DNA of 64,000 bases from Arctopsyche grandis (taxonomy: Eukaryota > Arthropoda > Insecta > Trichoptera > Hydropsychidae). The position numbers and the translations under genes are program-made. The notes beneath the pieces were generated by a model. That model had not been told where the DNA came from. It did no database searches and saw only the letters and a program-made list of their open reading frames with translations. Shown piece by piece: positions 731-28,487 of the stretch (position 1 is its first letter; each line of letters opens with the position of its first letter). The stretch lies in the NCBI RefSeq assembly GCF_051622035.1, contig NC_135364.1:25908501-25972500 (forward strand), in the 5' to 3' direction.

Positions 731-1147
731 TTATGAATCAATACAGATAACCAATTGAGTTTTTGTAAACCACTCCAGCAAAAGTTTATACCGTCCGTAA
801 AAAAACTTTTCTCTTAACAAATTGTGTAAAATTTCGTTTGCATTCAGATAATCCATTCTGTGGCTTTGCTGAAAATTTACAAAAAAAACGTCGCATAAAA
901 AATCGTCACGAATATATTATTTCATCCATTGATTCTTCGAATATATAATAAAAAATTAAGTGAGTAAAGAATTGCAATAAGGTGACATAATACTGTAACG
1001 AAACTTTTGAATAACACACTTGTTATCTGCCAGTATTTCAAATGGGGCAATTTTCAATATGAAAAAATATGTACAAACGTTATCTTGGTTGTTGGTAAAA
1101 CATGGTGTATATTTTCCAATCACCCATTTGTACAAATTAATTCAGCC
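731..1147 (-). pseudogene. Secreted-family copy 1, 5'-truncated pseudogene
   Basis: Exon 4 (868 to 731) reads in frame after a TTTTCAG acceptor and contains the family motif EKFFYGRYK, an EWF box and the last conserved Cys before a stop. Exon 3 (1147 to about 1004) has an intact acceptor and keeps the family Cys residues (DNVCTYF, DNKCV), but its second codon is TGA and the donor position reads GTTTCG out of phase. Exons 1 and 2 are not found upstream, where unrelated repeat sequence lies instead. The copy is the last recognisable unit at the left end of the cluster. An assembly error in exon 3 is possible, but loss of exons 1-2 makes a pseudogene the better reading. Confidence 0.7.
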
Positions 1148-1183
1148 CTGAAAGTGATATCATATATATAAAGACGGTAATCT

Positions 1184-1205
1184 GTATGTGTGTGTGTGTG
1201 TGTGT
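1184..1205. repeat. (TG)n microsatellite
   Basis: A short run of TG dinucleotides within repeat-derived DNA that displaced the 5' part of family copy 1. Confidence 0.8.
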
Positions 1206-1552
1206 CCTAACTCTCGCCGAACATAATGAACGAATCGATAAAAATCGATTAATTCATTTTTCGACGAGACGACTTTGTTGCGACTCCAACCGATCACCCC
1301 AAATACCCTGAATATGGGTCTAAATTGAGCTAATGGTCTCGGACATCACGCCAAATCCAATTTTTCATTTCGCCTTTTTTTTTAAACATTAATTGAAATA
1401 TTCCTTCTCACCATATAAAAATACGTAATTTTAATAATTTCATTTAGCGGGGTTTTGAACCATTTTTTTATGTATTTATTTTCAATTAAATTATAATTAT
1501 AATTTAAATTATTTATATTTTGACGATATTCGAGAAAAAAATTGATTTCATA

Positions 1553-1640
1553 CACCGCGGCGCCGGGAATCGAACCTCGGACCCTCCGATCCAAACGCAA
1601 TGTCACTCACGAGCTCGCGTCGCACGCCATATCCTCGCCC
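1553..1640 (-). repeat. tRNA-like SINE head or tRNA pseudogene
   Basis: On the minus strand a GC-rich block in very AT-rich surroundings contains GGTTCGATTCCC, a good match to a pol III B box, preceded by a TGGCGTGCGACG A-box-like segment about 50 bases upstream. No convincing cloverleaf with a 7-bp acceptor stem was found, so it is called a tRNA-derived repeat and not a functional tRNA. Confidence 0.45.
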
Positions 1641-1699
1641 AGAATACGTGTTGTAAATACACATCATATGTACATATATGCACGTAATTTGTTATGTGT

Positions 1700-2080
1700 A
1701 ATAATAATATTCAACGTTACGAGGTCAATGACCGTTTGTGTATAATCGGAAAATATTACATTTTGTTAACGTTAACTTTAAGAATTGAAAATTATTACAA
1801 ATAAAGAATTGAAAACTATCTATGAGAGTCTACGAAAATAACGGTTCCGGTTCCGGATTTTTTTTTTAGTTTTATACGGGTATATAATAATTTTATACCC
1901 ATGCGATGATATTTCATCGGGCTATTCACTAGTTTAAATATATTCAACCACAGACATCTATTTCGATTAGCACTAAAAAAAAGTCCTCGTTTGAAAGGCA
2001 CTAATTAGCACTAAAGAAACCTCGTTCCACAGCATCAATTATACTTTGGAAATAAATTAATCTTAGTTTTTAATAATAAA
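1700..2080. other. Intergenic, nothing recognised
   Basis: AT-rich sequence without a supportable gene. Open frames here are short and lack family resemblance. Confidence 0.5.
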
Positions 2081-2084
2081 ATTT

Positions 2085-2480
2085 AGATGTGACCAACCCA
2101 GAAATTTATCTATGTATTAGAGGAATATGAGAAGTATAAAAAGTAAAATTTGATAATGAAACATACATACACGTTTACACATACCGGCTATGGAAGCATT
2201 TTTGATACAAATTGATTGCAAATGTAGGGAAAAATACACAGGACAAAAGTTCTAGTTCCGATTGTCGGATTTTTTTCTACTCAAAATCACTATATATATA
2301 TATATATATATATATATATATATATATATATATATATATATATATATATATATATATATATATATATATATATATTATAAAAAAATAAAATATTATGAAG
2401 ATAGAAATAATTTAAAAGTTCAAAATAAAAAAAATTAAATATTGTTTTAAGGAAAATACTCCTTCCGGTTTACGAATGGT
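2085..2480 (+). repeat. Dispersed repeat with (TA)n core
   Basis: The segment from the GTGACCAACCCA box through TGTAGGGAAA and CCGATTGTCGGATTTTT recurs at 60895-61225 with the same order and high similarity, so it is an interspersed repeat. In this copy a (TA)n tract of about 84 bp (2291-2374) sits inside; the other copy lacks it. Its class is unknown; no coding sequence was found. Confidence 0.65.
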
Positions 2481-25450: not shown

Positions 25451-25730
25451 CTTCTCAATCTGGTGATAGAAACAGAAATGGTAATAAATTTCAATGCAAA
25501 TCGTCAAACAATATTTTCCTACACATCGTTGCGTTTCCATAATGGATAAAAATACAGTTCAACTACAAACTAATCGATTCTGGTGGCAAAACAAATTATT
25601 ATAATGACATAATTACGATATATTATTTCGTACATCTAAGCTTTAAATAGGATTATTGCATAAGTTCATGTCCGTTTTCCTTTATAGACAATGGTTAAAA
25701 TCTGGCATGAACTTATGCAGTCAATTAATT

Positions 25731-26340
25731 GATTTTGATTTTTAAATGCTTTTTATTATTACGAAATTATGTTCACAATACATCTTATATCTATTTTAAT
25801 AGCTACTGGTCTACTGATCATTTTCTGTTTTACAATTTAATTTAATTTGGTTAGTAATCATAGTATTATATTATTCTAATGTTAATCTACAGCATAATAG
25901 GAAAAAACAATAATTCTGGTTTGGTCAGCGGTTTGGGAGATAATTGAATTCAAAAACTTAAAAAAAAGTTTTTTAAAAACATACCTCTTGTATAACTTGT
26001 ATATAAAATTATTATTTTGAATAAAAACACCAATAATTTTTTTTACTACCGCCATCTATGTATAAAATCAATGACTACCAACTGTCACCGAGATTAAAAA
26101 TCTTCGAACCTGAAATGCTTCTTATACGATATTTTATCTCTATCGTAATGGCGGAGGCTCCATTTACTTATATTGATGACCAAAATGAGCAATATGGCAA
26201 AGTATAAAAACGATCGGATATGAGACAAACTTTTTCCTGAATTGTAAACGTAGAGGAGGTATGTAAAAAGAGCTCAAAAACCTATTTACAATCCCTATTT
26301 ACATGTTCATAATATGTACATCTAATACATAATATTAATT
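25731..26340 (-). mobile_element. LINE 3' UTR copy interrupted by a MITE
   Basis: 25731-25906 is the reverse complement of the jockey-like 3' UTR seen at 34290-34520, 44895-45108 and 45563-45769; its continuation resumes at about 26270-26340 (AGCTCAAAAACCTATTTACA). Between them, about 25907-26268, is an intact copy of the ACATACCTC MITE family, flanked on both sides by AAAAA. The order of insertion is therefore clear: LINE first, MITE second. Confidence 0.75.
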
Positions 26341-26652
26341 AAAGACTCACTAAAGTCGATGACCTAAAGCAGTCAATCAATACATTTTTCTGACATGGTG
26401 AATATCTTCGTATGTAGAAAAAAATCTATTTCTAAAGTATGTATGTACATGTGTACATATACTACTAAATCATTCTTTAAAAGGGCACAATTAATCATTA
26501 TGGAATATTATATTACATTTTAATACAATCTGTACTACAAACAAATAAGCGAAGAGCATCAAATCTTGCAAATCGATTTGAAAATTTTGGATAGTCATTT
26601 TATATTATACTAGTATTGTGCCCGTTAATATTTTTTTGTGGCTTATTGATAC

Positions 26653-27096
26653 TGTTGCGTAGGGGTGGGTGGAGGATCCAAGTAAAAGGCCAACAGTCAT
26701 TTCACAGCATTTATTTATGATGAATGAGATACACGCACTGGCAGTGCTCAGTCCAGAATGCCCTGATATCGCCTACGTACCGCCTTATAAAGGGTAGATC
26801 TCTCAGGACGTCTAATCTGTTTACCTGTTGTATAGTCACGTATTCGGATATGTATTTCCACGACATTGGGTCTCCCCGTACTGATTCTGAGAAAGGCTTA
26901 ATAACGGTCATTGTTTAGCCTAAATGCACTTAGAGTCCAGATATAATCCTGGAAGTAAGTGCAAGCACTTAGTTAATCCGATAACAGATATCCGTTGGTC
27001 TAAGTGCAAGTACTTAGTTAATCCGTTAACAGATAACCCTTGAACGGCCACATAGTCTCTGGGATTCTATTCGCTTAATCCGCGGCGTACGTAACA
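26653..27096 (-). mobile_element. Solo LTR, 444 bp
   Basis: Reverse-oriented copy of the LTR at 8245-8647, with ends TGTTGCGTAGGGG and TACGTAACA and a perfect 4-bp target duplication ATAC (26649-26652 and 27097-27100). It is longer than the other copy because a block of about 45 bp containing TTAGTTAATCCG is duplicated inside it (about 26950-27040). Confidence 0.82.
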
Positions 27097-27099
27097 ATA

Positions 27100-27497
27100 C
27101 CATTGATGCGAATCGGAACCAAAACTGGTACAAGAATTGGGAATCAAAACGGAAATAGAAACCGAAATAGGAATAGGAATCGGAACCGGGACCGGACCTG
27201 AAATATGAATCGGGAATCGGAACTTAAATAGAGATCGGGAATCGGAACAGGAACCGAAATCTGAACCGGAATGTGAATCGGAATCAGAACCGAAACTGAA
27301 ATAAGAATCGATAATTGGAACTGAAATAGGTATCGGGAATTGGGAAATTTAATAAAAAATAAACAAATGAACATATTCAAATAAGTTTAAATAAAATAAA
27401 ACTATTCAAATAAATTTAATAAAATGTTTACTATTAGATTGGCCATGTTTAAGCGGCTTATATTACAAATACCGAGCGAAGCCCAGTAAAACCACTG
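27100..27497 (+). mobile_element. Helitron-like element with GAATCGGAAC-type tract
   Basis: About 240 bp of degenerate hexamers (GGAACC, GAATCG) is followed by the 3' part of the Helitron family at 35841: GGCCATGTTTAAGCGGCTTA, ACCGAGCGAAGC, ending CCACTGG where CTAG is expected. The 5' side was displaced by, or runs up to, the solo LTR. A reverse-oriented Helitron-type end (CTAG 26610-26613) lies on the other side of the LTR. Confidence 0.55.
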
Positions 27498-27691
27498 GTA
27501 TATGTATATATGTATATATATTTTTTAATTATTGAACAATTTTAATTAGGCCTGAAAATGTATTATTATTCATTATTTAATTATTTTGATAATTATCTAT
27601 TTCCATAATATATAATATATGTACGTGTCAATACAATCGTAGGTACAATACAATTTTTGCATTTTATATATTTTTTTTTGATAAATATTTT

Positions 27692-28487
27692 TTATGTAGC
27701 ACGTAAGTCTACAACTTCACTTTCGCTCTCCAAACAAAATATTATTGTATTATTAGAATACATTTCAACACGTGAGCCGTAATTTCCATAGAAAAATTTC
27801 TTCCCAATGAACAACTGCATGAATTTACCAATATCAAGTTGAATCCCGTTGTATTCCCCCTTAAAATACACAAAAAATTAACATACTCTTATCATTATTT
27901 TTATTCCAACTTAAGAATAAATGTTTAAATACCTTCTTAAAAGAACAATCCTTTCCTACACCGTCTGACAAAAATATTGAATTTTTTTGAAGAAATTCAC
28001 AGAAACTGGGGATGTTCAACGTAAATATTGTATTTTTCTTGCCATTATCAAATTTAAGTACTTTAATTTGACCCTGAAATATGCATACATATTTAAAAAA
28101 AATTGAACAATACCCCTAAAATATCGTAAGCATCAGAATATAATATTTACAGTAATTCGAGTAACGTCATCAGTGAAAACCAAACTTCCTCGCATAAAAA
28201 AATTTCCATGCGGTGTAGCTTCTACGTATGACTTGAGGTAAGCCTTATAATCACTTAAATTATCGCTGCAATTAGTTATTGCCAATGATTTCATTTTGTA
28301 TAGCCCCTATTCATGAAAAATCACAAAAGATAAAAATAAACCATATTAAAACATTACATCGAATGATTATTTTACATACAAATTTAGCATTTTGCCTTGC
28401 ACCACCATTTTTCTTTGCACACATGGCGCTTAATACAAGTAAAAATAAAATTCCAATAATATAGAATACACATTTCCGATGCAACAT
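27692..28487 (-). CDS. Secreted-family copy 10, divergent (190 aa)
   Basis: Exons 28487-28380, 28306-28151, 28073-27933, 27859-27692; donors GTATGT, GTAAAT, GTATTT; all phase 0. The N-terminal MLHRKCVFYIIGILFLLVLS is a signal peptide. Cys positions: TNCSD, SFCEF, KDCSF, IFCLE; exon 4 motif GKKFFYGNYG. It shares the CSDxLSD block with copy 9 and both lack GPLM, so these two form a divergent subgroup at the right end of the cluster. Function not recognised. Confidence 0.85.

Follow-up and report, generated by a model that had tools for sequence, protein, structure and literature searches.

In the insect Arctopsyche grandis we find a tandem array of small four-exon genes that may well encode secreted ML/MD-2-like lipid-binding proteins with four cysteines, perhaps contact-chemosensory carriers of the CheB kind; comparing sequences, we put the probability of this reading at roughly one half. 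Kinship of the family with the ML superfamily (MD-1, MD-2, GM2A, NPC2) is supported but not proved. The window that we analysed (the whole stretch of 64,000 nucleotides) carries seven intact and three broken copies between positions 731 and 28487, all on the minus strand, and here gene models rebuilt from the sequence and profile matches agree with the count made in an earlier, sequence-only reading of this DNA. That reading had also placed the tandem array at 731-28487. The copies are indeed there, but position 731 is not the array's edge: in the same genome the array continues leftward, beyond the window, for about 153 kb, and altogether comprises 22 genes with open exons 2-4, on a single strand, at 25.757-25.937 Mb of the contig (C10). 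From 28.6 to 64 kb of the window, an exon-profile search revealed no additional copy (best E there 0.2 or worse). A search of Rfam gave no matches, and among pattern matches in contigs of viruses (24) and of prokaryotes (52) no relative was confirmed.

Each of the seven intact copies has four exons, a start codon and an in-frame stop, and all 21 introns are GT...AG and in phase 0, just as the layout had been described. With exons 1 to 4 given in that order, the copies are G2 at 4894..6349 (6248-6349, 6015-6173, 5144-5287 and 4894-5058, stop included); G3 at 9736..10514 (10419-10514, 10183-10341, 9965-10108 and 9736-9897); G5 at 14370..15148 (15062-15148, 14829-14990, 14615-14758 and 14370-14531); G6 at 16094..16857 (16765-16857, 16540-16698, 16325-16468 and 16094-16255); and G7 at 22924..24445 (24341-24445, 23400-23558, 23180-23323 and 22924-23085), the first intron of which is 782 nt long. 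Two more form a divergent clade: G8 at 24649..25450 (25364-25450, 25136-25291, 24910-25056 and 24649-24837), with a weak donor, GTTCCT, at intron 3, and G9 at 27692..28487 (28380-28487, 28151-28306, 27933-28073 and 27692-27859). The predicted proteins are 184-192 residues long including the leader, and about 155 without exon 1; their mature parts are only 22-59% identical, which bears out the strong divergence previously noted among the copies.

The four cysteines that the sequence-only reading called invariant (single ones in exons 2 and 4, a pair in exon 3) are present in 7/7 window genes; array-wide, three are kept in 22/22 genes and the fourth in 21/22. The FxYGx motif of exon 4 fared less well: one of the seven window genes reads FFFG and three of the 22 array genes read FFYA, so that of the motif's F and G only the F is common to all 22. 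Exon 1 is hydrophobic in all seven window genes (best 11-residue mean 2.05-3.30, versus at most 1.66 elsewhere), in keeping with the signal peptide proposed for it, as judged by hydrophobicity only. A looser search finds a hydrophobic exon 1 for 18 of the 22 array genes (11 of the 15 that lie beyond the window); tried at 200 random places, it is successful in 59. The array proteins are probably secreted.

Our exon profiles were built from the seven intact copies, which they match by construction; matches to the broken copies are independent. Two broken copies were found with each profile (exon 2, E 5e-21 and 5e-11; exon 3, E 2e-20 and 9e-13; exon 4, E 3e-28 and 9e-13), the third reaching only 0.04 with exon 3, and the reversed window yielded no match below E 0.089. 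At 734..1141, exon 4 (~734-868) is truncated by a stop and exon 3 lies at ~1004-1141; exon 2 was not found in this copy. The copy at 3037..3870 is about 90% like G3: exon 4 (3037-3192) is accompanied by an exon 3 whose frame is broken (match 3261-3380), an exon 2 into which a repeat is inserted (match 3535-3675) and a remnant of exon 1 that has no start codon. At 13137..13620 there remain part of exon 2 (13501-13620), the weak exon 3 and very weak scraps of exon 4 (E 3). Reverse-transcriptase-element frames at 11549-13141 adjoin this last copy.

Intact, broken and recently doubled copies thus stand side by side, which supports the birth-and-death evolution that had been suggested. The comparison of dN/dS between copies, proposed along with that suggestion, gave 0.21-0.61 in the 14 pairs with dS<1, out of 231 pairs; dN/dS exceeded 1 in none of these 14, and we rejected positive selection as the driver.

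The family had been called undescribed, and within the libraries that we searched this holds. No Pfam model reached cut-off with any of 14 proteins, with three consensus sequences or with a piece of one, and no NCBIfam model did so either; SLT_3 (0.23), Inhibitor_I10 (0.1), S1CSD-TOTE-1 (0.12) and ribosomal S6 (0.078) were set aside as chance-level matches, as was DDB1 (E 1.1-1.2), the sole match of a PDB profile search. A search of open-access papers turned up no description of the protein family. The two profiles singled out by the sequence-only reading, PF02221 (ML) and PF06477 (DUF1091), matched none of the 14 proteins, the three consensus sequences or the piece of one, while the positive controls for PF02221 were recovered (GM2A at 4e-22, ant NPC2 at 2e-21). 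PF06477 has no match anywhere in this genome; that says little, because it is absent from all 14 control genomes too. MD-2 proteins have at least six conserved cysteines, according to the excerpted text of PMC8670961, and the array family has four. Lacking both this number and a Pfam match, the family is not classed by us as a member of PF02221. What survives of the proposed kinship with MD-2-like and DUF1091 proteins is a weak but controlled likeness to MD-2, GM2A and NPC2, not membership of either Pfam family.

Several results bear on this likeness. The proteins have a leader (by hydrophobicity only) and a single domain of about 150 residues, as an ML domain requires. The NlML3 model has three disulfide bridges in the part of PMC8670961 available to us, and the array family's first and last cysteines, and its loop cysteines, fit the order of two of them. 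In a shuffle test (summed global alignment against 11 solved ML-superfamily chains, with shuffled columns of the family alignment as the null), nine of 11 chains scored above chance, both with seven members (z 2.4-4.7, reached by at most 20/1000 shuffles) and with 22 (z 2.2-5.3, at most 8/500). Mouse MD-2 and chicken MD-1 fail (83/1000 and 212/1000 with seven members; 161/500 and 249/500 with 22). The signal persists when the cysteine columns are kept fixed, and z drops to 1.1-2.3 when the family's cysteines are replaced. None of eight unrelated disulfide-bearing controls rose above chance (z at most 0.97), and reversed targets gave z of at most 1.28 in two runs and at most 1.81 in the 22-member run. 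Local alignments of single proteins were mostly near chance (28 z values, -1.0 to 3.0). Profile comparison with hhalign was mixed: the seven-member profile against MD-1, MD-2 and GM2A together, the best of six profiles, scored 25.07 (E 0.0025, 0/300 shuffles); known ML branches against each other gave E 0.086-0.52. The same profile was at chance against GM2A alone (119/300) and NPC2 alone (91/300). For the 22-member profile the score against MD plus GM2A fell to 14.1 (45/200 shuffles), with 186/200 for GM2A alone and 92/200 for MD-2 alone. A fold prediction for the unspliced exons 3-4 of one gene only gave mostly strands at pLDDT 42, a confidence too low for the model to be of use in recognising a two-sheet beta-sandwich with a lipid pocket.

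These results bear on the rival explanations to different degrees. The array might encode an unrelated, lineage-specific secreted fold for reproduction, saliva or immunity, in which case the ML likeness would reflect convergent cysteine spacing and beta-hairpins. Such a fold would account for the absence of Pfam and NCBIfam models above cut-off and of a convincing PDB match, and for the chance-level 22-member hhalign score against MD plus GM2A; moreover, turnover and relaxed selection fit any rapidly evolving secreted family. However, the shuffle test picks ML-superfamily targets over the eight controls even with cysteines in place, and we consider an unrelated fold unlikely, if still a serious contender. 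Lipocalins resemble the array proteins in size, in having four cysteines and in the G-x-[YF] at the start of exon 2, but no lipocalin Pfam model matched, the beta-lactoglobulin and RBP4 controls reached z of only 0.6-1.0, and the leading G sits at a splice border; we judge a lipocalin identity highly improbable. As for OBP and CSP proteins, which are helical and have six or four cysteines in typical spacing, Pfam gave no match, a moth pheromone-binding protein gave z of -0.7 to -1.1 in the shuffle test, and the low-confidence fold model consists mostly of strands.

The genes could, on the other hand, belong to a chemosensory family that already has a name, as this insect's own CheB (or CheA) members, diverged too far for Pfam to recognise. 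CheB proteins have a four-cysteine pattern that ends in C-x-E. CheB42a is small and secreted in the excerpted text of PMC2827562, which cites earlier work putting forward CheB proteins as GM2-activator relatives; further support comes from Rhodnius, for which the available part of PMC5216343 gives five CheB genes (CheB1-5) whose gene codes run consecutively, with antennal expression for every one. Triatoma infestans has five CheB and one CheA, according to an excerpt of PMC9801554. Against this, PF06477 does not match the array family, and the GM2-activator kinship of CheB42a is itself doubted by the authors of PMC2827562, in the same excerpt. We regard a CheB or CheA identity as possible, though on the doubtful side.

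Returning to the ML/MD-2-like reading, we infer secretion along the following lines, as well as how the disulfides pair, what class of ligand is bound, and in which tissue and role the proteins act. Exon 1 would be the leader, and the fold most likely the beta-sandwich cup of MD-2-related lipid-recognition (ML) proteins. One disulfide, between the first and last cysteines, would fasten the N-terminal strand to the C-terminal hairpin; a second, formed by the exon 3 pair, would shut the entrance loop, and the third one known from classical ML proteins is absent. Given their weak resemblance to lipid-binding proteins, the products may transport fatty signals, contact pheromones for example: hydrophobic ligands (cuticular hydrocarbons, fatty acids or sterols) would be carried outside cells, and the likeliest use is in contact chemosensation, as with CheB proteins. 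Unequal crossing-over may have multiplied the genes on one strand, whose copies would then drift apart, with purifying selection relaxed, and be lost; we propose that this divergence and loss keep up a repertoire of different pockets.

More tentatively, we can imagine an unnamed ML/MD-2-like branch, pared down to two disulfides and recast as a four-exon phase-0 gene, that grew in one insect lineage to a 180-kb array encoding at least 22 secreted carriers of lipids. Comparable with odorant-binding proteins, these would make up a combinatorial repertoire for contact pheromones or cuticular lipids. As matters stand, library searches leave nameless at least 22 probably secreted genes of one insect. 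Were these MD-2/GM2A/CheB-like lipid carriers, the array would offer a ready means of finding out how large a set of binding proteins contact-pheromone or lipid sensing keeps, and of studying pocket divergence and the birth and death of such families; the four-cysteine profile can be used on other insect proteomes to look for relatives missed by Pfam.

With the ML superfamily the array family shares the leader and single domain, a first cysteine near the N-terminus, a loop cysteine pair and a last cysteine in the C-terminal hairpin G-x-[YF]...C; it differs in its four rather than at least six cysteines, in leaving PF02221 unmatched and in its array of at least 22 genes. In the two NPC2-type genes found in the same genome, a single open frame holds the last three cysteines; in the array family these are split over exons 3 and 4, an intron separating the loop pair from the hairpin. 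GM2A touches the DUF1091 model weakly (E 0.0095, under cut-off) where the array family has C...GxY...G[KN][YF], but the array family itself has no match to this model. CheB and CheA proteins, as described in the excerpts above, are likewise small, secreted and encoded by several genes per species; set beside CheB by description only, the array holds far more copies than the five of Rhodnius.

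Ten copies of the gene, seven intact and three broken, lie on the minus strand at 734–28487 of the window (C10:25908501-25972500, C10 being contig NC_135364.1; genome 475.7 Mb, 189 contigs), and re-reading this stretch returned the same counts as the sequence-only reading. Each intact gene comprises four exons of 87–108, 156–162, 141–147 and 162–189 nt (the last with its stop codon); all 21 introns have GT...AG borders and fall between codons, 19 of them being 66–94 nt long and the other two 727 and 782 nt. Exon 1 supplies the start codon and a hydrophobic stretch, whose best 11-residue Kyte-Doolittle mean is 2.05–3.30 in the seven window proteins, against no more than 1.66 in the rest of these proteins. 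Pairwise identity of the mature window proteins is 22–59%, with eleven columns invariant in all seven: G, C, C, C, Y, G, F, G, E, C and E.

A search with per-exon profiles of the seven intact genes recovered the broken copies at E 3e-28 to 5e-11 (one exon 3 at only 0.04); the reversed window, used as a control, gave no match below E 0.089, and the same search found no family copy at 28.6–64 kb of the window. The broken copy at about 734–1141 (-) has a frame-broken exon 3 and a shortened exon 4. That at 3037–3870 (-) is a near copy of the intact gene G3 (89–93% alike along long stretches); its reading frame is broken, it carries an inserted repeat and it lacks a start codon. The third, at 13137–13620 (-), is a remnant adjoining reverse-transcriptase retroelement frames; such frames occupy 11549–13141 and 18140–21004 (-) within the array, with RVT_1 and endonuclease matches at 11549–12478 and 20363–21004 (-). 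A repeat pair in opposite orientation, at about 8243–8645 (+) and 26645–27100 (-), starts with TGTTACG, ends with CAACA and, by eye, looks like a solo long terminal repeat. Elsewhere in the window, a gene at 42231–43199 (-) has a full DUF1295/steroid-reductase-like domain (PF06966, E 6e-81), and exons at about 47687–53582 (-) resemble NADPH oxidase, apparently as one multi-exon gene; its FAD- and NAD-binding domains score above cut-off, its ferric-reductase domain just below.

The array is much bigger than the 731–28487 stretch first noticed. A part of G3, searched as DNA against the whole genome, gave 11 matches: itself, four window copies, five leftward of the window on C10, and a single one on contig C4. 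When exon profiles were iterated across 224 kb (the window plus 160 kb leftward on C10), every match listed at E 0.01 or better was on the minus strand, and 22 genes, the window's seven included, had open exons 2–4 bounded by splice sites as expected. These span C10:25757146-25936806, the outermost match being at 25755185. A gap of about 75 kb (C10:25765600-25841000) holds no copies, with a few outlying members beyond it, and exon profiles found zero copies in a further 10 kb to the left (L029); from these two observations it is likely, though not proved, that the left end has been reached. A leader-like exon 1 was found for 18 of the 22 genes (7/7 in the window, 11/15 outside), the calls outside being weaker because 59 of 200 randomly chosen places also pass that search. 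At C4:25692867-25693201 (L007/L015/L016) there is a lone degraded exon 3 (E 5e-7), perhaps with an exon 4 (E 0.14).

In the protein tree, the rightmost genes G8 and G9 make up a clade of their own (100/100), separate from the remaining twenty. Eight close pairs are recent (dS 0.13–0.35). By the Nei-Gojobori method, applied to exons 2–4 only, dS is below 1 in 14 of 231 pairs, whose dN/dS is 0.21–0.61 (median 0.46); when the ten pairs with dS below 0.8 are pooled, dN/dS is 0.55, 0.45 and 0.31 for exons 2, 3 and 4. The family is under relaxed purifying selection, with birth and death. Positive selection is not demonstrable, dN/dS exceeding 1 in none of the 14 pairs.

No Pfam cut-off was reached by the seven window proteins, seven more array members (exons 2–4), or three consensus sequences and a piece of one of them; only three matches were listed (E 0.1–0.23), NCBIfam gave a single match (E 0.078), and the best PDB match had E 1.1. 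As a check on sensitivity, the Pfam model of the MD-2-related lipid-recognition (ML) superfamily was matched by GM2A at 4e-22 and by ant NPC2 at 2e-21; GM2A also touches DUF1091 (E 0.0095). We kept the family out of PF02221 because that model has no match to it and its proteins lack the six cysteines required there; the DUF1091 model likewise has no match to it. Two NPC2-type ML genes occur in the same genome, on contigs C7 (L027) and C13 (L028). Their last three cysteines lie together in open frames, whereas in the array family an intron separates the third cysteine from the fourth, which makes it unlikely that the array is a recent expansion of these two genes.

Cysteine order and a C-terminal hairpin of the form G-x-[YF]...E...C-x-E pointed to ML-type proteins, and we therefore aligned the family alignment end to end with known proteins, summed the scores and took the same alignment with shuffled columns as the null. 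With seven members, nine of 11 chains (MD-1, MD-2, GM2A, NPC2; four subfamilies in all, and so not independent targets) gave z 2.4–4.7, with no more than 20 of 1000 shuffles scoring as high, while mouse MD-2 (83/1000) and chicken MD-1 (212/1000) failed. With 22 members the same nine gave z 2.2–5.3 (at most 8/500) and the same two failed again (161/500 and 249/500). Eight unrelated disulfide proteins gave z -1.2 to 0.97; among reversed targets the highest z was 1.81, for human MD-2 (23/500). Fixing the cysteine columns during shuffling hardly altered the outcome; replacing the family's cysteines lowered z to 1.1–2.3 for the four targets tried, so the cysteines account for much of the likeness.

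Other comparisons are discordant. Single-protein local alignments were mostly near chance (28 z values, -1.0 to 3.0), as they were for the accepted relatives NPC2 and GM2A. In hhalign, the seven-member profile scored 25.07 against MD-1, MD-2 and GM2A combined (E 0.0025, probability 12%, reached by 0/300 shuffles); of 300 shuffles, 5 reached the score for all ML, 11 for MD, 6 for MD-1, 119 for GM2A and 91 for NPC2. The 22-member profile fell to 14.1 against MD plus GM2A (45/200) and rose for NPC2 (2/200) and all ML (1/200), with 9, 18, 92 and 186 of 200 for MD, MD-1, MD-2 and GM2A. Known ML branches did no better against one another (E 0.086–0.52). Kinship with the ML superfamily is supported, not proved. 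A predicted model of exons 3 and 4 of the window gene G6, read through the unspliced intron, is of low confidence (mean pLDDT 42.3, pTM 0.28), with strands 2–9, 12–20, 28–33 and 37–40 and helix 21–27 in the exon-3 part, and strands 96–104 and 112–120 and helix 81–88 in the exon-4 part; it would suit a C-terminal hairpin and carries no weight as a fold.

In PMC8670961, the planthopper ML protein NlML3 is modelled with bridges C35-C150, C50-C57 and C105-C111. The family's first and last cysteines may correspond to C35-C150 and its exon-3 pair to C105-C111; the second NlML3 bridge has no counterpart. The array is real, large and diverged, here unnamed, and its proteins, which are probably secreted, likely belong to a known kind of lipid-binding protein, as a variant with four cysteines; it should interest specialists in insect chemosensation and is not without precedent. 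In ML-type cups, lipids are held between two sheets. Because of these cups, of the sensory and courtship associations of CheB42a and of the antennal CheB genes of Rhodnius, our best guess is that the array would supply a carrier repertoire for hydrocarbons or fatty acids. According to PMC2827562, CheB42a is a secreted modulator of a sensory channel with a link to courtship; its kinship with the GM2 activator is a proposal of others that those authors doubt. In Rhodnius there are five CheB genes whose gene codes run consecutively, and each of them is reported from antennae (PMC5216343).
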